Below, one piece after another: positions 4,754 through 25,436 of a stretch of 25,436 bases of DNA. A model generated the notes under the pieces. That model had not been told where the DNA came from. It made no database searches and was given only the letters and a program-made list of their open reading frames with translations. Where the stretch lies: the IMG/VR virus record IMGVR_UViG_3300048591_000144, positions 1 to 25,436 of that record, one strand, 5' to 3'. A program made the translations under genes and the position numbers. Position 1 is the first letter of the stretch; every line of letters begins with the position of its first letter. Source of the DNA: a virus.

Positions 4754-6904
4754 ATGGCATCGTCTCTCGGCAGCCTGGTTGTCTCGCTTGGGCTGGACGC
4801 GGCGCAGTTCGTCGACGGCCTGACGAAGAGCGAATACCAGGCGCGTGCGTTCGTGCGCAACGTCACCGCGACGACGACGCGCATGGTGGGCGTGTTCGCT
4901 GCGGTCGGCGTCGCCGCGGGTGGTGCGCTGGCCGTGCTCGGGAAGGCGGCCGGTGCGATCGCGGTGTATCAGGATCTCGCTGACCAGGTGGGCGATACCG
5001 CCGAGGCGGTCGCCGGGCTGCAGCTCGCTGCCGACTTGAGCGGACAGGGGCTTGACACGGTCGCGCGCGCGTCGGTGAAGCTCACTGACGCGCTGGCGAA
5101 GGCCGACGACGAGAGCAAGGGCGTCGGCGCGGCGCTCGCGGCGATCAACGTGCCGCTGGACGAGTTCAAGCAGCTCGACCCGGTCGCGCAACTCGAGCGC
5201 GTCGCGCAGGCGCTGGCGGGGTTCGAGGATGGCGCCGGCAAGACGGCGGTCGCCGTTGCGCTCTTCGGCCGCGCAGGCGCCGAGCTGATCCCGTTCCTGA
5301 ACGACCTGGCCGAGACCGGCGGGCGGAACCTGCGCCTGACGAAAGAGCAGATCGCAGCGGCCGACGACTACGCGAAGAAGTACGACCGCCTGAAATCGGA
5401 GATCGCCGGCTTCGTGCAGGTGGTCACTGCCGAAGCAATCCCGGCGGCCTCGACGCTCGCGACCGAAATCGGAAACGTGCTTCGCGAATCGATGGGCGCC
5501 GGCGGTGCGCTGAAGACGCTCGCCGCCGATGGCTCGATTCGCCGATGGTCGGAGAACGCTGCGGTCGCGATGGCCGTCGTTGTCGAGTCGTTCGTGTTCG
5601 CGGCGAAGGCTGCGCGCGTGACGGTCAACGCTTTCGGCGCCGCGTTCTCGGACGTGAAGCTCGGTGGCACGGTAGCCAAGAACATGTTCGGCGGGTTCCT
5701 GTTCGAGTCGAATCGAAAGGATCTCGCCGACGCACTGGCCGATCGAAACAAGACGGTTGCTGATTTCAACGCGCAGCTCGACGACCTCATCAATTACGAC
5801 GGCGCGAAGCTCAGTCGCACGCTGCGCGAGACGTTCGCCGCAGGTGATCTCGTCGGGCCGCCGGCGCCCACGAAGACGAAGCCGACGCTACGCTTCACCG
5901 TGCCTGGCGCGGGCGGCAAGGGCGGCAAGGGCGCTGGCTCCATGTTCGGCGACATCGAGGACCAGGCGGCGCGCACGCGGCAGGCGGTCGCGAACCTGAT
6001 CTCGAATTCGGAGGTCGCCGCCGCGCGCGAGTACGCGCTGCAGATGGAGTTCCTCGACAAGCTCTTCTTCGACCTCGGGCTCGACGCGCAGGTGTACGAC
6101 TCGGCGATGAAGGGGCTCACGCACTCGACGGTGACGTTCGGCGAGGACGGCCGCAAGGCGCTCGAGGACCAGGCGTCGGCGTGGCTCGACACGCTCGATC
6201 CGCAGCGCGAGGTGAATCGAAACCTCGAGAAGCTCAACCGGATGCTCGAGGCCGGCATCGTAACGCCGGCGCAGGCCGAGGCACTTCGCAAGATGTTTGC
6301 CGACGCCAACAAAGAGCTGTCCGAGATGGATCAGTTCGCCATCGAGGCGGCACGCAACATTCAGGATGCCTTCGGCGACACGCTGTACGACGCGATGCAG
6401 GGCAATTTCGACGACATCGCGGGGAGCTTCAAGCGAATGATCGACCGGATGGTCGCCGAAGCGCTGGCGGCGCAGCTGGCGCGCAAGCTGATGGGCGACT
6501 TCGGCAAGACAGGCGAGATCGGCGGGTGGTTCGGCGCCGGGCTCAATTGGCTGCTCGGCGCGGGTGGCGGCGGCGGCTCAGGATTGCCGGTGCCCGTCGT
6601 CGCGAGCGCAGCGAACCCGTTTGGCGTGGCGGGACTCGCCGGCGGCGGCCCGGTCGAGGCAGGCGGCCTGTATCGCGTCAACGAGCGCCGCACGGAGATG
6701 CTCAGCGTCAACGGCAAGGACTACCTGATGGCGGGCGCCGCTGGGCGGGTGCGCCCGAATCCGCAGCTTACGATAGCCGGTGAGCAGCGTCCGGTCGTGC
6801 AGATGACGGTCTACGCCAACGACGCCGAAAGCTTCCGCCGCTCGGAGAATCAGATCGTCGCCGGGCTGGGCGCGCGCCTCGGCCGCGGGAGTCGCGTGCG
6901 ATGA
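4754..6904 (+). CDS. Tail tape measure protein
   Basis: 716 residues, 3 nt after the T frame. The N-terminus (SSLGSLVVSLGLDAAQFVDGL) is typical of tape measures of GTA-like and lambda-like tails. A hydrophobic segment (about residues 40-65, VGVFAAVGVAAGGALAVLG) and a second apolar stretch near residue 270-290 may help DNA entry through the membrane. The bulk is helical with AEL.PFLNDLAE and repeated Ala/Lys/Glu heptads. The C-terminus (GLAGGGPVEAGGLYRVNERRTEMLSVNG) is the 'GG.V..G..Y.V.E.G.E.' ending found in many tape measures. At the usual ~0.15 nm per residue it predicts a tail of roughly 105 nm. The stop overlaps the next ATG as ATGA. Confidence 0.93.
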   Translation: MASSLGSLVVSLGLDAAQFVDGLTKSEYQARAFVRNVTATTTRMVGVFAAVGVAAGGALAVLGKAAGAIAVYQDLADQVGDTAEAVAGLQLAADLSGQGLDTVARASVKLTDALAKADDESKGVGAALAAINVPLDEFKQLDPVAQLERVAQALAGFEDGAGKTAVAVALFGRAGAELIPFLNDLAETGGRNLRLTKEQIAAADDYAKKYDRLKSEIAGFVQVVTAEAIPAASTLATEIGNVLRESMGAGGALKTLAADGSIRRWSENAAVAMAVVVESFVFAAKAARVTVNAFGAAFSDVKLGGTVAKNMFGGFLFESNRKDLADALADRNKTVADFNAQLDDLINYDGAKLSRTLRETFAAGDLVGPPAPTKTKPTLRFTVPGAGGKGGKGAGSMFGDIEDQAARTRQAVANLISNSEVAAAREYALQMEFLDKLFFDLGLDAQVYDSAMKGLTHSTVTFGEDGRKALEDQASAWLDTLDPQREVNRNLEKLNRMLEAGIVTPAQAEALRKMFADANKELSEMDQFAIEAARNIQDAFGDTLYDAMQGNFDDIAGSFKRMIDRMVAEALAAQLARKLMGDFGKTGEIGGWFGAGLNWLLGAGGGGGSGLPVPVVASAANPFGVAGLAGGGPVEAGGLYRVNERRTEMLSVNGKDYLMAGAAGRVRPNPQLTIAGEQRPVVQMTVYANDAESFRRSENQIVAGLGARLGRGSRVR

Positions 6905-7518
6905 GCTTCATCGACGAACGCTTCCCCGAGAAGTGGGCACTGGATGCCGTGCGCTCGATCCTGTGGGTCAACGAGATCGTCGCCACGCGGAACCAGCGCG
7001 AGTCGCGCAACACGCCGTTCGCCTTCCCGCGCTACGAATGGGATCTGTCGATGGCGGCGAAGGTCGGCCGCGCTCGCGCCGAGTTCGATGACTGGTTCCT
7101 CGTGATGCGCGGGCAGGAGCACACCTTCCCGCTGCGCGACCCAGCCGACTACACGGTGCCCCGGCAGCGAATCGCCACCGGCGACGGGGCGACGAAGACG
7201 TTCCAGCTCGTCAAGACGCATACCGTTGGCGCCACCGCGTTCGATCGCGAGATCCAAACCCCCGTCACCAGTTCGGTGCGCGTGTGGGTGAACGGCGTCG
7301 AGCAGCTTTCTGGCTGGTCGGTGAGCCGTACGACGGGCATCGTCACCTTCACGGCGGCGCCGGCGGATGGCGCGGTGATCGAGGCGACGTGCGCGTTCGA
7401 CATGCGCGTGCGTTTCAATCAGGCACAACTTGACTGGCGCATTGCCGAGAAGAACGTCTCGAAGGGCTACCTGTGGGTCTGTCCGGGCCTCAAGTTGATC
7501 GAGGTAATCGGCGAATGA
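6901..7518 (+). CDS. Distal tail protein, DUF2460 (TIGR02217) family
   Basis: 205 residues. It opens FIDERFPEKWALDAV, a clear DUF2460/TIGR02217 signature, followed by NEIVATRNQRESRNTPFAFPRYEWDLS. A 'DWFLVMRGQEHTFPLRDPADY' motif comes next, then GDGATKTFQLVK and VWVNGVEQLSGWSVS. In gene transfer agents and related siphophages this is the first of four tail-tip proteins and forms the distal tail ring under the tape measure. The order DUF2460, DUF2163, NlpC/P60, hub in this window is the same as in Rhodobacter-type GTAs. The coding starts and stops overlap as ATGA at both ends. Confidence 0.93.
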   Translation: MSFIDERFPEKWALDAVRSILWVNEIVATRNQRESRNTPFAFPRYEWDLSMAAKVGRARAEFDDWFLVMRGQEHTFPLRDPADYTVPRQRIATGDGATKTFQLVKTHTVGATAFDREIQTPVTSSVRVWVNGVEQLSGWSVSRTTGIVTFTAAPADGAVIEATCAFDMRVRFNQAQLDWRIAEKNVSKGYLWVCPGLKLIEVIGE

Positions 7519-8429
7519 GATCCGTCCACCCCGCCATCACCGCTGCCCGGCTGTCGAGCAGCTCGCGCCTGTGCAAGATCTGGCGCATCGAGCGCAAGGA
7601 TAGCGTCGTGCTGCGATTCACCGAGCACGATCGGGATCTGACCGTTGATGGCGAGACGTTTGAAGCGACGGCGTCGTTCGACCCGAGCACGATCAAGGCA
7701 ACGGGCGATCTCTCTGTAGACGATCTCGACGTGCAAGGCGCGTTCGACTCGTCGTACATCACCGCCGAGGACCTGACCGCCGGCCGGTACTACGGCGCAT
7801 CGTTTTTCGTCGCCGAAGTCCTGTGGGACAACGTAGCCGCCGGAATGGACGTGCTGCGCTTCGGCTGGCTCGGCCGCGTGAAGGAGTCGGGCGGCAAGTT
7901 CGTTGCCGAGCTGCTTGGGCTCACGGCGCCGCTTCAGCAGCCGATGATGCGCGTGTACGCCGTGGCCTGCGATGCCACGCTCGGCGATGCCCGGTGCGGG
8001 GTTGATCTCGCGCCGTTCACGCAGACGGGCACCGTGACGGCGGCGACCGATGCGCGCGTATTCGCCGCCTCGGGCCTGACGCTCGTCGAGGAAACCTACT
8101 TCGATTTCGGCAAGGTCACATGGACGACTGGCGCCAATGCCGGCCTGTCGATGGACGTGGGCACCTCTGACGGAACGAACGTCGCGCTCTTCTGGCCGAT
8201 GCCGTTCCAGATCTCGGCTGGCGACACGTTCTCGATCACGGCTGGCTGCAACAAGAGCCTCGGGCAGTGCATCTCGCGGTTCGCCAACAAGCTGAACCAT
8301 CGCGGCCATCCGCACGTGCCGGTCAACGACGAACTCATCAAGGGCCCCGTGCCCGGCGCCTCCACGCCGGCCGCAACCCCGCCGTCGTCTGTGGACGGCT
8401 CCGGCAGCGACTGGGGTGGCGGATGGTGA
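7515..8429 (+). CDS. Tail-tip protein, DUF2163 (TIGR02218/BR0599-like) family
   Basis: 304 residues from ATG 7515 (ATGA overlap with the DUF2460 gene; the open frame extends upstream only inside that gene). Key signs: LSSSSRLCKIWRIERKDSVVLRFTEHDRDL at the N-terminus, then FDPSTIKATGDLSVDDLDVQG, and the Cys-bearing C-terminal block (CDATLGDARCGVDL near residue 156 and GCNKSLGQCISRF near residue 248). In GTA structures this protein is a hub component and its cysteines bind an iron-sulfur cluster or are paired. The last residues (SVDGSGSDWGGGW) form a flexible end. It overlaps the NlpC/P60 gene by 7 nt. Confidence 0.9.
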   Translation: MRSVHPAITAARLSSSSRLCKIWRIERKDSVVLRFTEHDRDLTVDGETFEATASFDPSTIKATGDLSVDDLDVQGAFDSSYITAEDLTAGRYYGASFFVAEVLWDNVAAGMDVLRFGWLGRVKESGGKFVAELLGLTAPLQQPMMRVYAVACDATLGDARCGVDLAPFTQTGTVTAATDARVFAASGLTLVEETYFDFGKVTWTTGANAGLSMDVGTSDGTNVALFWPMPFQISAGDTFSITAGCNKSLGQCISRFANKLNHRGHPHVPVNDELIKGPVPGASTPAATPPSSVDGSGSDWGGGW

Positions 8430-8821
8430 CGCGCGAGCAGTTCGTGGCCGAAGCGCGAACGTGGCTCGACGTGCGCTGGCAGCACCAGGGGCGCAACCGC
8501 CATGGCGTCGATTGCATTGGCCTCGTGCTGGTGACGTGCTGGGCGCTCGGGCTCACCGACTACGACGTCAAGGGGTATGGCAGGACGCCTAACGCCGGCT
8601 TCCTGCGGCGCGAGTGCGACCGGCTGATGACGCGCGTTCGTGAGGCGCAGGCGGCCGACGTTCTGCTCATGCGCTACGGGAGCGAGCCCCAGCACATGGG
8701 CATCGTCACGGATCGCGGCGTGATCCACGCCTACGCGCCGGCCCGCAGGGTCGTCGAGACTGATTCGCTGCCCGGTCAACTGTCGGTTGTCGCCGCATAC
8801 ACCGTGCCGGGGGTGGCGTAG
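8423..8821 (+). CDS. NlpC/P60-family tail peptidase
   Basis: 132 residues from ATG 8423 (the open frame starts earlier but only inside the preceding gene; GTG 8426 is an alternative). The papain-like catalytic set is visible: Cys31 in HGVDCIGLV, His91 in QHMGIV and a third polar residue, His102, in IHAYA. These cell wall endopeptidases, TIGR02219 type, sit at the tail tip and cut peptidoglycan crosslinks so the tail can reach the inner membrane. It lies between DUF2163 and the hub as in GTAs. The stop TAG overlaps the GTG start of the hub gene by one base. Confidence 0.93.
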   Translation: MVTREQFVAEARTWLDVRWQHQGRNRHGVDCIGLVLVTCWALGLTDYDVKGYGRTPNAGFLRRECDRLMTRVREAQAADVLLMRYGSEPQHMGIVTDRGVIHAYAPARRVVETDSLPGQLSVVAAYTVPGVA

Positions 8822-15352: not shown

Positions 15353-15494
15353 CGGCGCCGGCCGCGTGCCGATCGACGCTGCGGCGCAGGCCGTGCGCGA
15401 GGCCAAGACCGAGATGGCGAGTTGCGAAGCGCGGCTCGATGGATTGCAGCAGTACGTCCGGGACGTCGTACGCCCGGCAGGAGTAACACCATGA
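15219..15494 (+). CDS. Outer-membrane spanin lipoprotein (Rz1-like)
   Basis: 91 residues from TTG 15219, or 88 from ATG 15228. I prefer TTG because GAGGGAG (15205-15211) sits 7 nt upstream, while the ATG lacks a well-spaced site, and because it gives an Arg before the apolar core. Signal peptide (MLIAAACLLTGC) with lipobox LLTGC; the cysteine would be lipidated. The mature part starts with a Pro-rich stretch (GTPSPVIVPMPAPPAW), typical of Rz1, and ends in a helix (QAVREAKTEMASCEARLDGLQQYV). It begins inside the i-spanin gene in another frame and runs 142 nt past it. The stop overlaps the next ATG. Confidence 0.85.
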   Translation: MRPMLIAAACLLTGCACGTPSPVIVPMPAPPAWTMQAGCQWPRIDGAGRVPIDAAAQAVREAKTEMASCEARLDGLQQYVRDVVRPAGVTP

Positions 15495-17716
15495 CCGATA
15501 CCCCCGGCTCTTTGCTCGACGCACATCTTGCCGCGCTGTCCGCGCGCACCGATGCCCTGGAAATCCGCATCGCCGTCCTCGAGCGCGTGGTGGCGGATGG
15601 CACGCCTCCGGTGGATCCGCCGGAAGAACCGCCCGTCGAACCGCCGGACGAGCCGCCCACCGATCCTGACCCGCCCGAAGAACCGGCCGATCCCGATCCA
15701 CCGGACGACCCCGATCCGCCTGTTGACCCGGAGGATCCTACCGAGCCGGAAGACCCGCCCGCACAGCAAGGAGCGCTCGCACGCACGCCGATCCCGCTCA
15801 CCAATCTGCTGCTGCTCACGACGCATCATCGCTCCAGCCGGTACGAGCGGTTCCAGAATGCAACCACGCTCGTTGGGCAGACGGCGAAGATCTCCTTCCA
15901 TTGCTTCGACTTCGTGAGCGGCGGAAAGGAACTGCCGCTGAACGGCGAGTATCGACTGCTCGTGAACGGCGAAGAACGAGCGAAGGTGACGTGCTCGGGA
16001 GCGAAGGTCGGCACGTTCGCGCTCGATCTCGCGCCGCTTCCGGACCAGACGTGGCTGCGTCTCGAAGTGCTTGGCGCTGGCGTCACTGTTCCGTGGGCCG
16101 TGTTCCTGAATCGCTCCGGTGCACAGGTCGAGAATCCGCCTCCGGCTCCCGTCGTCTCCGGCTCCTACGAATGGGTCAAGCACCATCCGGAGTCCTTCTT
16201 CGGCGCGATCCCCTCTGCATTCCGCCCGACAGAGCTTCCGCTCTTGCCGCGTGAGCACCCGCCCGTCTCGGTCGGTGACGCACTCGTGCGCACGAACATC
16301 GCGCCGTCGCGCGCTGGCACGATTCGGCGACTCGTGCGCAACAAGTACGGCGCCGTAAGCACGTTCAACAAGCAGGCATACTTTTTCAGCGATTTGATCG
16401 CGAAGACGCCGCGCTTCCCCTTGCTCGACGGGCCGCGCGGCCGCGGCACGATCACGATGCCAACGCACGTGATGGTCGGGAGAGGGGACAAGTTCTACGT
16501 CTGCGAACCATGGCGCTTCGTGCGCATCCATGCGGACGGCTACGTGCACACGCTTGCCGGCTGGCGGCATCGACAAGAAGGCGAGACGCCGCCGACCGGA
16601 TGGGGCAGTGAAACCGCCGCCGAGCCGCAGGACATGGAGTTCGTCGGCGAGTGGGATCCATCGGTCCCGGCGGAGCGCCGGCAATTCCGCGAGCTGTGGG
16701 GCAATGCCTGGTGGCAGCGGTCCACCGAGACGGACGAGTCTGCGGCAGAGTTGCCGCCCGAGCCCGGACACTCTGACGTCTGGCAGAAGCCGCACAAAAT
16801 CGGTGTGCGCTCGTTCCTCGCCGACTCGCAGATGGATCGCGTAGTCGCGTTGCAGTTCTCCCCGATCATTCATGGCGCGCCGGTGATTTCCGAGTTCTGG
16901 CGCGGCCCGGACTGCTGGGACGTCGTCTCGACGGGATACGACACGATCGCCATCAGCGAACGGCAGGCCAACCGCATCGTCGAGGTGCACGCGGGCACCG
17001 GAGAGTTGGTGCGCGTCCTCGTGCAAGGCCCGGCTTACGGCGCGTTCGCCACGGTCCAGCAACAGAATCGGTTCGTCATTCGCACGTCGACGCTGGAAGC
17101 ATGCCGTACCGCGCCGTGCCTGCTGCCGGAGGGCATGGCGGTGATGGACCGCTGGCTGTATTGGGGGTCGGTCGCGCAAGCCGAGATCCGCCGCGTCCAT
17201 CTCGACACCGGCGAGATCCAGACGGTCGCGCGGCCCAAGACCGACAACAACAGCAACTTCATCAAGCTCGCTGTGTCGGATGGCACGTTCGGGCCGCGTC
17301 ACACGGTGTTCTCGACGTCGTGGACCGTCATGACGAACGGATGGCCCGAGGCGTTCGTGCCGCAGGCGGATGGTACGTGGAAGAAGTGGGCCTACGCGAC
17401 GATCGCCGCCGGCTCGCCGAACACGGGCCGCGCGAAATCGTGGGCGCCCGTGAGCTACGGCAGCGCGGTCGGCGTGGGCGAAGGCCGGCTCATGTTCGGC
17501 TCGGCCGCAGAGGGGCTGGTGGCCATGAGCAAGGCGCTGCCTGCCGACGAGACGATCGACATCGCGAAATACAAGGCCGGCGCCGCGGAGTACACGCTGT
17601 GGGAGCCCACACACGGAGACGGCGGTTTCGGGTTCGCGGGACTTCCGCTGCCGTGGGGCGAATCGGCCGCGATCGACTACTACCTGTCGGCACAGGGACA
17701 CCGGAGAGCGCCATGA
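15491..17716 (+). CDS. Large coiled-coil/Pro-Glu-Asp-linker/propeller-like protein, unknown
   Basis: 741 residues, ATG 15491 in an ATGA overlap with the o-spanin. Residues about 8-34 form a heptad helix (LLDAHLAALSARTDALEIR), a likely oligomerisation coil. Residues 37-91 are an acidic, proline-rich linker with repeated PPEEPP/PDPP units. The rest is beta-rich with repeated blade-like units: GDKFYVCEPWRFVRIHADG, DSQMDRVVALQFS, TIAISERQANRIVEV, VMDRWLYWGS and IRRVHLDTGEIQTV, similar to NHL or YWTD propellers. No signal peptide or membrane span is visible. Its place after lysis genes and before attP is typical of cargo genes or late tail appendages. A virion-attached sugar-binding or enzymatic appendage is possible, but no catalytic signature was recognised. 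Confidence 0.6.
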   Translation: MTDTPGSLLDAHLAALSARTDALEIRIAVLERVVADGTPPVDPPEEPPVEPPDEPPTDPDPPEEPADPDPPDDPDPPVDPEDPTEPEDPPAQQGALARTPIPLTNLLLLTTHHRSSRYERFQNATTLVGQTAKISFHCFDFVSGGKELPLNGEYRLLVNGEERAKVTCSGAKVGTFALDLAPLPDQTWLRLEVLGAGVTVPWAVFLNRSGAQVENPPPAPVVSGSYEWVKHHPESFFGAIPSAFRPTELPLLPREHPPVSVGDALVRTNIAPSRAGTIRRLVRNKYGAVSTFNKQAYFFSDLIAKTPRFPLLDGPRGRGTITMPTHVMVGRGDKFYVCEPWRFVRIHADGYVHTLAGWRHRQEGETPPTGWGSETAAEPQDMEFVGEWDPSVPAERRQFRELWGNAWWQRSTETDESAAELPPEPGHSDVWQKPHKIGVRSFLADSQMDRVVALQFSPIIHGAPVISEFWRGPDCWDVVSTGYDTIAISERQANRIVEVHAGTGELVRVLVQGPAYGAFATVQQQNRFVIRTSTLEACRTAPCLLPEGMAVMDRWLYWGSVAQAEIRRVHLDTGEIQTVARPKTDNNSNFIKLAVSDGTFGPRHTVFSTSWTVMTNGWPEAFVPQADGTWKKWAYATIAAGSPNTGRAKSWAPVSYGSAVGVGEGRLMFGSAAEGLVAMSKALPADETIDIAKYKAGAAEYTLWEPTHGDGGFGFAGLPLPWGESAAIDYYLSAQGHRRAP

Positions 17717-18488: not shown

Positions 18489-18510
18489 ACCGCCGGGCCG
18501 TTTCGGCGGT
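18489..18510. other. Hairpin in the attP left arm, possible weak terminator
   Basis: Perfect 7-bp stem ACCGCCG (18489-18495) and CGGCGGT (18504-18510) with an 8-nt loop. No T run follows (TCCTGGGG), so it is weak as an intrinsic terminator, but it could act as a two-way barrier between the converging operons. Its loop and right arm also contain GGGCCGTTTC, which matches the core of the 19-bp repeats at 18546 and 18697. Confidence 0.4.
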
Positions 18511-18545
18511 TCCTGGGGGCGCTACGCGCGTCGCAGCATGGATCT

Positions 18546-18564
18546 TGTGGGGCCGTTTCTGCCA
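18546..18564 (+). repeat. 19-bp direct repeat, left copy (candidate integrase arm site)
   Basis: TGTGGGGCCGTTTCTGCCA, identical to 18697-18715; the copies begin 151 bp apart and bracket the IHF site and tRNA fragment. A diverged third copy aligns at 18490-18508 (13 of 19 bases), 56 bp upstream. Confidence 0.8.
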
Positions 18565-18569
18565 CGAAT

Positions 18570-18605
18570 GCATGCTGTGCATGGGCTCCATGCTCTCCAT
18601 GCGCA
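18570..18605 (+). repeat. Four tandem 9-bp repeats (candidate excisionase or accessory binding array)
   Basis: Units GCATGCTGT, GCATGGGCT, CCATGCTCT and CCATGCGCA follow each other without gaps (consensus SCATGSnCn). Units 2 and 3 also form an inverted repeat GCATGG-GCT-CCATGC (18579-18593). The array sits between the left arm repeat and the IHF site, where excisionase sites are found in other phages. Confidence 0.65.
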
Positions 18606-18608
18606 TCG

Positions 18609-18621
18609 TAAGCAGTTGATT
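18609..18621 (-). promoter_or_regulatory. IHF binding site, perfect consensus match
   Basis: On the minus strand the site reads AATCAACTGCTTA, fitting WATCAANNNNTTR at every fixed position. It lies in a less GC-rich pocket 6 bp left of the tRNA fragment. The 6-bp inverted repeat TCGTAA (18606-18611) / TTACGA (18622-18627) surrounds it. IHF would bend attP so that arm-bound integrase reaches the core. Confidence 0.75.
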
Positions 18622-18627
18622 TTACGA

Positions 18628-18672
18628 GGGCCTCTAGCTCATGTTGGTTAGAGCAGCGGACTCATAATCCGT
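18628..18672 (+). pseudogene. tRNA(CAU) 5'-half, candidate att core
   Basis: The 45 bases fold as the first half of a tRNA: acceptor 5' strand GGGCCTC (18628-18634), T8, A9, D stem GCTC (18637-18640) with GAGC (18651-18654) around a 10-nt loop ending GGTTA, and anticodon stem GCGGA/TCCGT (18656-18660, 18668-18672) with loop CTCATAA. The anticodon CAT is at 18663-18665 (elongator Met or lysidine-modified Ile2). No T-arm (GTTCRA) or acceptor 3' strand follows, so it is not a working tRNA. It is most likely the identity segment with the host tRNA gene used for integration. Confidence 0.75.
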
Positions 18673-18684
18673 GGGCTTCATAGG

Positions 18685-18710
18685 GAAACGGTGCTCTGTG
18701 GGGCCGTTTC
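18685..18710. repeat. Inverted repeat GAAACGG/CCGTTTC near int stop
   Basis: GAAACGG (18685-18691) and CCGTTTC (18704-18710) form a 7-bp inverted repeat with a 12-nt loop. The right arm is part of the 19-bp repeat, so this may be a second, opposite half-site for integrase on the right arm of attP. There is no T run, so it is not a clear terminator for int. Confidence 0.5.
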
Positions 18711-18715
18711 TGCCA
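18697..18715 (+). repeat. 19-bp direct repeat, right copy (candidate integrase arm site)
   Basis: Identical to the copy at 18546-18564, same orientation, ending 3 bp before the integrase stop codon and starting 24 bp after the tRNA fragment. A match of this length by chance within 200 bp is very unlikely. Confidence 0.8.
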
Positions 18716-18718
18716 GAG

Positions 18719-19699
18719 TCAGGCGCGCTTCTTCTTGCCCCAAATCGTCGCCAACAGCTCGGCTTTCCGCTCGGCGTACAGGTGCGCGTAGCGGTTCGTC
18801 GCCTGCGCCGTCCGGTGCCCGAGCACCTTCCCGACCTCGTTCAACGTGGCGCCCGTTGCCTGCAAGGCAGAGGCGGTGCTATGTCGCAGATCGTGCGGAA
18901 CGATGTGCTCCATGCCGACTTCGCTTCGCGCCTCGCGGAACACTCGGCTGTGCCACGAATAGTCGTGCGGCAGCGGCCAATGACGAGCGTAGCGGCGGAA
19001 CTTCGGGAGAACCGGCTTCATTTCCCGGTCGCCGTTCTTCGGCTCCGGCATGAGGAAGTACGCGCCGTCTGCGATCGGCTCGGCCCGGTACAACTCTCCC
19101 GGCCGCGATCCGGTGGCGAAGGTGAGCAGCACCCATGCGCGTGTAGGAAAGTCGTGAATCGCGCGAGCCAGTTGGAGTACCTCGGCCCGCCGCAGGTAGA
19201 AGTGCCGCTCGTTGTTCACGCTCGGCATCGGCATCGCGGCAATCCAGTCTTTTGAACCGATGCTGTGGTATTTGAGCGCGTAGGACGCGGCAGATCGTAG
19301 CGTGGCGAGCCGCTGGCGGATCGTGGCGGGAGCTAGGTCGTCCTTGTGTTTGCTCGCGTACTTGCGGGCCACCTTGCCTAGTTCGTCAAGGCCACGGCCC
19401 TTGTAGTCGTCCAGAAGGTGGACGAGATTCAGCGCGGAGTTCTTGCCGTCCTTGAGTTCCGGGACGCGCTCGCGCAGATAAAGCGCGACGGCTTCATCGA
19501 TCAGCGGGACGGTGCTGATCCGCTTCCCGGTAGACAGACGAGCGTAGGTTCTCGCCGTTTCCTGTTCGTCGTAGCGCCGCGCTTGAGTTTCACTCCAGCC
19601 GCGAGGAAGGAGGCGGCTAAGTCGATGCCGCTCCCCGTCGATCGTCGCTTTGAACTGCCAGCGCCAGCGGTTGCGCTCTTCGTCGAAGTAGTACGACAT
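18719..19699 (-). CDS. int: Tyrosine integrase
   Basis: 326 residues from ATG at 19699, with AAGGA just upstream; the open frame extends further to 19762 but only within the excisionase gene. The N-terminal part (SYYFDEERNRWRWQFKATIDG) is the small DNA-binding beta domain that contacts arm sites. The catalytic domain shows Arg199 (TGSRPGEL), His269 and Arg272 (PHDLRHS), His295 (LGHRT) and nucleophile Tyr304 (TNRYAHL), a complete tyrosine recombinase set. The C-terminus is basic (WGKKKRA). It lies next to attP and directs integration into a tRNA(CAU) gene. Its start sits at codons 51-52 of the upstream excisionase-like gene, giving a 199-nt out-of-frame overlap. Confidence 0.95.
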   Translation of the reverse strand: MSYYFDEERNRWRWQFKATIDGERHRLSRLLPRGWSETQARRYDEQETARTYARLSTGKRISTVPLIDEAVALYLRERVPELKDGKNSALNLVHLLDDYKGRGLDELGKVARKYASKHKDDLAPATIRQRLATLRSAASYALKYHSIGSKDWIAAMPMPSVNNERHFYLRRAEVLQLARAIHDFPTRAWVLLTFATGSRPGELYRAEPIADGAYFLMPEPKNGDREMKPVLPKFRRYARHWPLPHDYSWHSRVFREARSEVGMEHIVPHDLRHSTASALQATGATLNEVGKVLGHRTAQATNRYAHLYAERKAELLATIWGKKKRA

Positions 19700-19851
19700 G
19701 CGTCCTTGTATGCCTGAACGTCGGATTCCGCGAACCGGACGGCACGCCCGAACCGATGGCATGGGAGCGGGCCTTTCGGGGCGGCGATAGCGTACACCGT
19801 CCGCAGATCAAGTCGCAGCCGCTCGGCTACTTCTTCGGCGGTCAGTAGCAT
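19501..19851 (-). CDS. xis: Excisionase-like HTH protein (MerR/AlpA type)
   Basis: 116 residues; ATG at 19851 in a TGATG overlap with the upstream gene. The first ~52 residues are a clear HTH_17/excisionase domain: LLTAEEVAERLRLDLRTVY (helix-turn-helix) and HRFGRAVRFAESDVQAY (wing and helix), as in TIGR01764-type proteins. The remaining ~60 residues are Ser/Thr/Arg/Lys/Gly-rich, appear unstructured and are read over the start of int in another frame; they may be real tail or merely long readthrough in GC-rich DNA. Probably binds attP (the 9-bp tandem repeats are a candidate) and steers Int towards excision; it may also act as an autoregulator. Confidence 0.8.
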   Translation of the reverse strand: MLLTAEEVAERLRLDLRTVYAIAAPKGPLPCHRFGRAVRFAESDVQAYKDACRTTSTKSATAGAGSSKRRSTGSGIDLAASFLAAGVKLKRGATTNRKRREPTLVCLPGSGSAPSR

Positions 19852-23675: not shown

Positions 23676-24728
23676 TCACTCCTTCGCCTTGAGCGCCTTG
23701 CGCAGCCGCCCGAACTCGTTGCTCGCGTCGGGCTGCTGGTCGGCGGGCAGTGTCTGGATGAGGTCGCCGAGAGCGTCGAGGTCGTCGAGGCTCTTCGCGG
23801 ACTGGAAGCGCTCCATCAGCTGCGCGAAGGTGATGCGCGGCGCGACGTCGGCGTCGCCCTGCGTCGCCTGCTCGAGCCCCGCGGCCTGCTCGGCGTCGAT
23901 GTTGGGGGGCGGCGCGTCGTGCTCGATCTCGGCGTGCTCGCCGACGATCGTGAACTCGCCGTCGATCGTGTCGAGCTGCTGATCCTTGTCGGCCGCGGCC
24001 ATGCCGTCGAGCGCCACCGCCGTCTGGAACTCGACCGACAGCGGCAGGTACTTCGCCAGGCGCCGGATGACGGTCTTGCGGCCCATCTCGGTGAAGTGGT
24101 CGTGCCAGGGGCCGTACTTCCCCTTGCTCTGCGTCGCGGCCATGATCTCGCGCACCTGGTGCACGCTCATGAACTCGAAGGCGTGCCCGCCGCCCTGCAG
24201 CTTCGCCACCGCGTAGAAGCCGATCACCTCGCCGCGCTCGCCCATCGAGGGCGAGTGATTCAGCCTTTCATCGAGCCCGTAGACCAGTTCGAAGTGGTCG
24301 TTCGTGCAGACTTCGTGCGCGGCGATGCTGGCGATCTGCCCCGAGCGGCGCGCGAGGTCGATCAATCCCTTGTAGCCGATGACGACCTGCACGCTCTTGA
24401 CCCAGCGCTCTCGGCCCTGCGCATCCTTGCGCTTCGTGTTGAACGGCACGAGGTAGGCGTGTCCGAGCACGGTGTTCGGCTCGAGGCCCATCTGCGCGCA
24501 CTGGCCGATCGCGCCGATGAGCGAGGGGATGTCGCACTCAGCCAGCGCCGGCGTCGTCGTGGCGGCGATCTGCGCCACCTTGAGCAGGCGCTCGGCGTTA
24601 AGGTGCTTCGGCAGCATCTTCGCGATCTCGCCGCGACGCTGATTCAGCAGGTGCGCGATCTTCTCCTTCGGCTTCATTTCGGCGACGGCGGTGCCGCTGG
24701 TAACGGCGCGGAGGGCTTGATTCGACAT
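23676..24728 (-). CDS. recT: RecT-family single-strand annealing protein
   Basis: 350 residues, ATG 24728 with AGGAG upstream. The RecT pattern is complete: PKEKIAHLLNQRRGEIAKMLPKHL near the N-terminus, then CDIPSLIGAIGQCAQMGLEPN, GHAYLVPFNTK, VQVVIGYKGLIDLARRSG, GFYAVAKLQGGGHAFEFMS and GPWHDHFTEMGRKTVIRRLAKYLPLS (about residue 200-230). The C-terminal third is acidic and less conserved. It binds the ssDNA made by the YqaJ exonuclease encoded 19 nt upstream and pairs it with complementary strands. Likely used for phage recombination or replication repair. Confidence 0.96.
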   Translation of the reverse strand: MSNQALRAVTSGTAVAEMKPKEKIAHLLNQRRGEIAKMLPKHLNAERLLKVAQIAATTTPALAECDIPSLIGAIGQCAQMGLEPNTVLGHAYLVPFNTKRKDAQGRERWVKSVQVVIGYKGLIDLARRSGQIASIAAHEVCTNDHFELVYGLDERLNHSPSMGERGEVIGFYAVAKLQGGGHAFEFMSVHQVREIMAATQSKGKYGPWHDHFTEMGRKTVIRRLAKYLPLSVEFQTAVALDGMAAADKDQQLDTIDGEFTIVGEHAEIEHDAPPPNIDAEQAAGLEQATQGDADVAPRITFAQLMERFQSAKSLDDLDALGDLIQTLPADQQPDASNEFGRLRKALKAKE

Positions 24729-24747
24729 GGTTGCTCCTCGGTAGGGG

Positions 24748-25436
24748 TCAGCGAATGCGGAAGACGCGCGACTCGCTCGCGGTCTTGAACTGCTCGAACA
24801 GGTCCGGGTGCGCGGCTTTCAGCGCCGACTGGTCAAGGCGGTTGCTCGTCTGCGACTTCCACGTGATCGCCGGCTTGCCGTTGATCGTCACGCTCGCGGC
24901 GTCGCGCATGAACAGCTGAATCGCTTCCTTCTCGTCGCCGATCGCGCGCTCGAGATCCTTCGCCCGGTGCGTCAGGTCGACCAGGCGCGCGATGCGCTCG
25001 ACGATCTCAGGCGTCGCCTCGATCGCGTTGCCGGCGTCACGCCGGTAGAGCACGCGCAGGTCTTCGACGTTGGCCGGCGGGGGCGGCGTGCGTGTGAGCA
25101 CGTGCTCCTGCCAGAACTCGATTTCGCGCTTTCGCAGCGTCGCGATGATTTCCTCGTCGCGCTCGACGCGGTACACGCGCACGTCGTCGAAGCCGATCAT
25201 CGCGAGCACGTAGCAGAGGTCGCGGGCCCGCACCATCAGCCCGTGCTGCGCCTGCGCGGTCACGTACACCGGGCAGTCGTCGGCGCCTTCCTCGCCCCAA
25301 TCGCGCGCGGCCAGCGGGTGCACCGTCTTGATCTCGACGTTCTCGCCGCCGGCCGTCTCCGCGTCGATCTCGGCCTTGATGAACGGGTGCTCGCGATCGG
25401 TGTATCGCTCGTTGACCGTCACCAGCTGCAGGCCAG
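24748..25436 (-). CDS. YqaJ-type viral recombinase exonuclease, C-terminal part
   Basis: The frame is open past the right window edge (the visible codons read through to 25436), so the N-terminus is missing. The nuclease core is visible: HPFIKAEID, then VEIKT with the Glu-x-Lys pair of PD-(D/E)XK enzymes (as in lambda exonuclease), then CPVYVTAQAQHGL with the downstream Gln. The C-terminal ~100 residues form helices (EIVERIARLVDLTHRAKDLER) and an end (KPAITWKSQTSNRLDQSAL) typical of YqaJ proteins. It resects dsDNA 5' to 3' to load RecT. Confidence 0.92.
   Translation of the reverse strand, partial: GLQLVTVNERYTDREHPFIKAEIDAETAGGENVEIKTVHPLAARDWGEEGADDCPVYVTAQAQHGLMVRARDLCYVLAMIGFDDVRVYRVERDEEIIATLRKREIEFWQEHVLTRTPPPPANVEDLRVLYRRDAGNAIEATPEIVERIARLVDLTHRAKDLERAIGDEKEAIQLFMRDAASVTINGKPAITWKSQTSNRLDQSALKAAHPDLFEQFKTASESRVFRIR

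Follow-up and report, generated by a model that had tools for sequence, protein, structure and literature searches.

The 45 nucleotides at 18,628-18,672 (+ strand) of the DNA analysed here are best explained, with high confidence in that explanation as a whole, as the bacterial-identity core of a complete and working phage attachment site (attP) that carries the 5′ half of its target tRNA gene. The stretch analysed, hereafter the window, is an IMG/VR virus record of 25,436 bp and represents a fragment of a phage genome. Elements that integrate into tRNA genes are usually argued to carry the 3′ half of the gene in order to keep the host promoter. The opposite arrangement is seen in a natural lysogen of a relative of the window phage, and a comparison with other members of the same integrase family suggests that it is a derived state.

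The tRNA half and the surrounding attP

The block at 18,628-18,672, which reads GGGCCTCTAGCTCATGTTGGTTAGAGCAGCGGACTCATAATCCGT, corresponds exactly to the 5′ half (45 nt) of a bacterial tRNA-Ile2(CAU) gene. It covers the acceptor 5′ strand, the D arm and the whole anticodon arm, with the CAT anticodon at 18,663-18,665, and the sequence that follows from 18,673 is not tRNA. ARAGORN detected no complete tRNA in the 25,436-bp window, and a covariance search of the same DNA gave nothing beyond a weak and broken tRNA match that starts at 18,628. The part that runs from the D loop to the anticodon stem (GCTCATGTTGG...TCCGT) recurs exactly in four genomes of the Quisquiliibacterium family, where it sits within tRNA genes that are identical at the 5′ end as well, and a chance match is therefore excluded. 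The original prediction of a tRNA(CAU) 5′ half extending from the acceptor 5′ strand to the anticodon stem is hence confirmed by the sequence and by four bacterial genomes. The C4 and C5 acceptor bases, together with the existence of a separate Met gene, lead us to presume that the target is Ile2 and not Met. A phage nucleotide search yielded only unrelated lytic phage tRNA genes, and the 119 loci recovered by an exact search with the tRNA core were nearly all complete phage tRNA genes, with no 5′ halves among them.

It had also been claimed that the D loop holds an extra base and that a lysogen would consequently express an altered tRNA(CAU). The extra base is real with respect to the shorter GCTCAGTTGG type, but not with respect to nearly all the Burkholderiales tRNA-Ile2 genes compared, in which the D loop is of the same length or longer. 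Moreover, the phage D loop (ATGTTGG) is native in genomes G409, G417, G426 and G428 of the likely host family, in which a lysogen would thus not be expected to make an altered tRNA, and the phage and host copies of the lysogen described below are identical. The native D loop points to the Quisquiliibacterium family as the probable source of hosts for the window phage.

The tRNA half is flanked by two exact copies of an 18-bp arm-type repeat (GTGGGGCCGTTTCTGCCA), both on the + strand and both putative integrase arm-binding sites. The distal (P-side) copy, at 18,547-18,564, begins 114 nt before the anticodon loop, and the proximal (P′-side) copy, at 18,698-18,715, lies at +37 from the start of that loop. 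These are the two matches found in the whole window at up to three mismatches, against 0.01 expected. The repeat is present once at each end of a Quisquiliibacterium prophage, at -115 and +37, and an exact search of IMG/VR recovered it only in that prophage itself. A third, imperfect arm-like copy (GGGCCGTTTCGGC) at 18,495-18,507, 55 bp upstream of the P arm, is possibly a second P-side arm site. A predicted IHF-type site, AATCAACTGCTTA (WATCAANNNNTTR), occupies 18,609-18,621 on the minus strand, 52 nt before the anticodon loop; it is the sole perfect match to the IHF consensus in the 25-kb window, against 0.06 expected, and it is also present in the Quisquiliibacterium copy. Between the P arm and this site lies an imperfect inverted repeat (GCATGCTGTGCATGG/CCATGCTCTCCATGC, 18,570-18,602), the place of which is taken in the Quisquiliibacterium copy by an unrelated, perfect 9-bp inverted repeat (GCGCATAGA/TCTATGCGC).

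The likely core is the anticodon stem-loop GCGGA-CTCATAA-TCCGT (18,656-18,672, + strand), whose anticodon loop is common to all attachment sites in the family. Judging from sequence, the 7-bp overlap is probably the loop itself (18,661-18,667), with the stems acting as core-type Int sites, and host identity stops 5 nt 3′ of the loop. Int would be expected to bind the arms of this attP, and IHF its predicted site. The features examined as diagnostic of a tyrosine-recombinase anticodon-loop tDNA module, namely an adjacent integrase, flanking arms and a loop-centred core, are all present.

The integrase is encoded at 18,719-19,762 on the minus strand (tyrosine recombinase, Pfam PF00589, E = 8e-14; conserved protein from near 19,699), with its stop codon 3 nt from the P′ arm, and its nearest match is the Quisquiliibacterium prophage integrase, at 79% identity. 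An HTH_17 protein (19,501-19,851, minus strand; PF12728) overlaps the integrase start, is 81% identical to the neighbour of the Quisquiliibacterium integrase and may play an excisionase-like role. The integration module, composed of int, the HTH gene and the att arms (window 18,540-19,851), has about 80% in common with the Quisquiliibacterium locus (L009 ~7400-8620, G001:C3). The Quisquiliibacterium prophage possesses a P22-type portal gene and shares only the integrase and HTH protein among the window proteins compared. The 5′-half module thus seems to be mobile between unrelated phages. Elsewhere in the window, two ORFs among head-tail genes (1,062-2,548) resemble by eye a glycosyltransferase/heptosyltransferase and a SAM methyltransferase, a 764-aa protein with proline-, glutamate- and aspartate-rich repeats near its start (15,422-17,716) has no Pfam match, and a RecT family protein (PF03837) and a weak YqaJ-like match (23,676-25,422) probably constitute a phage recombination pair.

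The Quisquiliibacterium transsilvanicum lysogen

The genome of Q. transsilvanicum DSM 29781 contains two exact copies of its 5′ half, located 56 kb apart on one contig. At the integrase-distal end of the prophage the core lies within an intact tRNA(CAU), and the DNA upstream of this gene is homologous to the P side of the window, repeat and IHF site included. At the integrase end, other DNA leads into the core, and phage DNA that includes the second repeat comes after it. That other DNA can be identified as native host flank because it is matched by the empty site of a relative (G421, locus L176), with 87% identity over 1,142 bp spanning the host 5′ flank into an intact tRNA-Ile2, and it bears a TATACT -10 box. 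The rebuilt tRNA-Ile2 of Quisquiliibacterium hence consists of a phage 5′ half and the resident 3′ half, 56 kb away from the stranded host promoter. The integrase gene is whole in this lysogen, and the two copies are identical over 46 bp, so that the exact crossover cannot be placed within them. The predicted joining of a phage 5′ half to a host 3′ half, with displacement of the host promoter, is thus observed, and both a crossover outside the fragment and an unrelated remnant are contradicted by the lysogen of the relative. Searches for close integrases or duplicated cores in sets of 300 and 399 Burkholderiales genomes revealed a second exact copy only in Quisquiliibacterium, among the matches listed. 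For the window phage itself no lysogen is known, and the step from attP to lysogen rests on the Quisquiliibacterium relative.

A second tyrosine integrase resides just 3′ of the rebuilt tRNA-Ile2 (L008:5272-6447, within region L008 (G001:C3) 5272-6697), and a displaced tRNA 3′ half, running from GACTCATAA, is found on a different contig (G001:C4:11617-11661; L163 about 1480-1525). The simplest reading, which has to bridge a contig gap, is that a classical 3′-half element entered the same tRNA gene from the opposite side; in that case mobile DNA is now the source of both halves of the functioning tRNA.

The structure of this lysogen bears directly on other readings of the tRNA half. In tRNA-dependent lysogeny, which is known in actinobacteriophages, some of them with tRNA-Ile2 (PMC10865867), the host tRNA is destroyed, a separate phage tRNA substitutes for it, and the 5′ half would be merely the recombination core. 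The window being a fragment, a tRNA elsewhere in the phage is conceivable. Nonetheless, the lysogen tRNA is rebuilt intact, the 56-kb Quisquiliibacterium prophage contains no other tRNA gene and neither does the window, and the shared block is a 45-nt half with 43 identities between otherwise unrelated phages, as opposed to about 10 bp in such phages, all of which makes this reading very unlikely. Pattern searches of the Quisquiliibacterium genome disclosed no second intact tRNA-Ile2; the other CAT match with full arm context there is an elongator tRNA-Met-like gene.

It is slightly less probable still that the half is a functionless leftover of a past tRNA or of imprecise excision, decayed and without a role in integration. 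The failure to find a lysogen of the window phage would agree with such a remnant, but the half lies between paired arm repeats at conserved spacing, it retains 43 of 45 nt in common with the Quisquiliibacterium prophage copy while the stretch that separates P arm from IHF site has diverged, and the relative did integrate through its 5′ half. The least credible possibility is that the polarity has been misread, the intact tRNA being an untouched host copy and the integrase-end half the phage's own, in an ordinary arrangement: since both copies are identical the junctions alone are uninformative, but, barring a coincidental synteny, the empty site in G421 reveals native host 5′ flank with a -10 box upstream of the integrase-end half, and the intact tRNA is preceded by DNA homologous to the P side of the window.

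A change of half within one integrase family

An alignment-based search for integrase relatives provided 61 IMG/VR loci in addition to genomes, and 48 of these loci had enough DNA beyond int to be read. A rule-based scan identified a tRNA 3′ half (T arm, acceptor strand and CCA) in 47 of the 48, comprising 34 half genes and 13 loci with an ARAGORN tRNA as well, some of which are probably integrated copies; the remaining locus (L253) has a 3′ half by eye. One further relative, from the bacterial family of Quisquiliibacterium, carries the 3′ half of tRNA-Cys. It came from a search for more 5′-type relatives by two-sequence alignment, which found none in IMG/VR and, in the family genomes, this one relative of the 3′ type. 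The 5′-half carriers known in this integrase family are the window phage and the Quisquiliibacterium prophage only. Targets across the family include Ile2(CAU), Cys, Lys, Ser and Leu. A tRNA(CAU) is combined with a 3′ half in Bordetella phage IFTN8 and in loci L203, L215 and L233, and genome G008 (L259) harbours a classical lysogen in the same tRNA-Ile2(CAU) gene.

Repeat pairs surround the core in most of the 3′-half relatives examined, although a few of the best pairs are weak and may be due to chance. In L196, L215, L222, L230, L233 and L250 the distal repeat has its start between -113 and -115, compared with -114 in the window and -115 in Quisquiliibacterium, and the IHF motif is found at -52 in two 3′-half loci (L203 and L215) as it is in the window. 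For the proximal repeat, on the other hand, the start is at +37 in the two 5′-half carriers and at about +92 to +97 among the 3′-half types that target Ile2, Lys and Cys, making the P′ side some 57 nt shorter in the former. Conserved distal and shortened proximal spacing argue that the reaction and the geometry of the distal arm have stayed unchanged while the 3′ half disappeared and the 5′ half came to lie distally. The most direct comparison is with Bordetella avium phage vB_BaM-IFTN8 (OM293957), which has an integrase about 40% identical, the same target and anticodon-loop core, similar arm repeats, a distal offset of -114 and the same orientation of the core relative to int. Unlike the window, IFTN8 bears a 3′ half, and after it a terminator-like hairpin, in the interval from core to int, and its integration would keep the host promoter. 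A terminator between the tRNA 3′ half and int is found in 11 of 35 3′-half relatives, against 2.4 expected, and is absent from the window, which is suggestive of its loss alongside the 3′ half but nothing firmer. In Bordetella phage IFTN2 (L195 2540-3713) and in L199, L207 and L209 the whole att cassette, which in IFTN2 consists of arms and core with the 3′ half of tRNA-Cys, is inverted relative to the integrase gene.

In the integrase tree the two 5′-half integrases form one clade (100/100) on a long branch among 3′-half relatives (84/93 for the enclosing branch). The 5′-half state hence appears to be derived within the family, through one change of state with two known members, and a route via a phage carrying a complete tRNA is plausible. 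In the scheme that we propose, the tyrosine integrase would recombine the CTCATAA loop of the phage core with the same loop in the host tRNA-Ile2(CAU), presumably assisted by the arm-type sites on both sides and by IHF bending. Because the phage 5′ half is integrase-distal, an intact tRNA would be rebuilt at that end from the phage 5′ half and the host 3′ half. Left behind at the integrase end, and aimed into the 3′ end of int, would be the promoter of the host gene together with its original 5′ half. Relatives hold the 3′ half between core and integrase; the window lineage would have lost it, and the 5′ half would have been fitted inside the unchanged distal spacing.

Transcription of the rebuilt tRNA and significance of the switch

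With the host promoter left at the integrase end, we infer that transcription of the rebuilt tRNA begins in prophage DNA. It had been anticipated that the phage would have to supply a promoter at 18,606-18,627 or further upstream. The host promoter is indeed displaced in the lysogen of the relative, but 18,606-18,627 is the location of the IHF consensus, and scans with consensus and weight matrices found no sigma-70-like promoter there or further upstream. A -10-like box precedes 21 of 24 native host tRNA-Ile2 genes at a distance of 7-26 nt; none precedes the 5′ halves in either phage, and about 70% of shuffled sequences score as high as the phage ones. The conserved block beside the tRNA was considered as a promoter and rejected, as it coincides with the IHF consensus and its position is kept in relatives, and the best distant candidate, in Quisquiliibacterium, is weak and overlaps the P arm. 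A phage ORF in the same direction ends about 54 bp upstream of the rebuilt Quisquiliibacterium tRNA, and read-through from it is possible. In the window, the genes upstream of the 5′ half are late-region genes, a point in favour of a dedicated start that has escaped recognition.

Integration through a 5′ half is rare but known. Islander lists 159 islands with a 5′ fragment and 3,760 with a 3′ fragment (159/3,919; PMC4383910), and a 5′ tDNA fragment is displaced in 9 of 88 elements of Sinorhizobium meliloti (PMC11476347). In both sets, as in the window, the element provides the 5′ part of the tRNA and the resident 5′ part is displaced; the Islander 5′ class, in particular, is matched by the window attP, with its 5′ part, and by the Quisquiliibacterium lysogen, where the displaced 5′ fragment is at the element's far end. 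What distinguishes the present case is that the 5′ type represents a switch within a single integrase family, in which the other members that could be read use the 3′ half, in some cases that of the same gene. Archaeal pTN3-type integrases likewise use the tRNA 5′ half as attB and part the rebuilt gene from its promoter, a situation that a review describes as seldom seen in bacteria (PMC8371274; PMC5495485). In that system, though, integration at an attachment site internal to the integrase gene splits that gene, and the integrase promoter is believed to drive the tRNA. In the window the attP core (18,628-18,672) is outside int (which ends at 18,719), and in the lysogen of the relative the integrase stays whole, at the prophage end opposite the rebuilt tRNA. 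Mycobacteriophage Fionnbharth resembles the window phage in that its prophage supplies an essential tRNA from its own DNA, but it does so with a whole tRNA gene and a core of about 10 bp (PMC10865867), whereas a half gene suffices here and the tRNA is rebuilt. As far as the literature consulted shows, a within-family switch with conserved distal arm geometry and a partly shared target gene is new.

A more far-reaching proposal, which we put forward as tentative and consider rather unlikely in its entirety, is that the half carried flipped with crossover and distal geometry kept, placing the host's only AUA-decoding tRNA under prophage-controlled transcription and leaving the displaced promoter antisense into int, where it may silence int in the lysogen. 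More generally, the family offers a clean comparison, in which a single type of integrase uses both halves, partly of the same tRNA gene and through the same loop, and it shows that recombination geometry does not determine which half is carried. It also provides a testable system for the control of essential-tRNA expression in a lysogen. Finally, the Quisquiliibacterium locus seems to have 5′-type and 3′-type elements on one tRNA gene and, if the two-element reading is true, a switch of half may let an element use a site that is already occupied from the other side.
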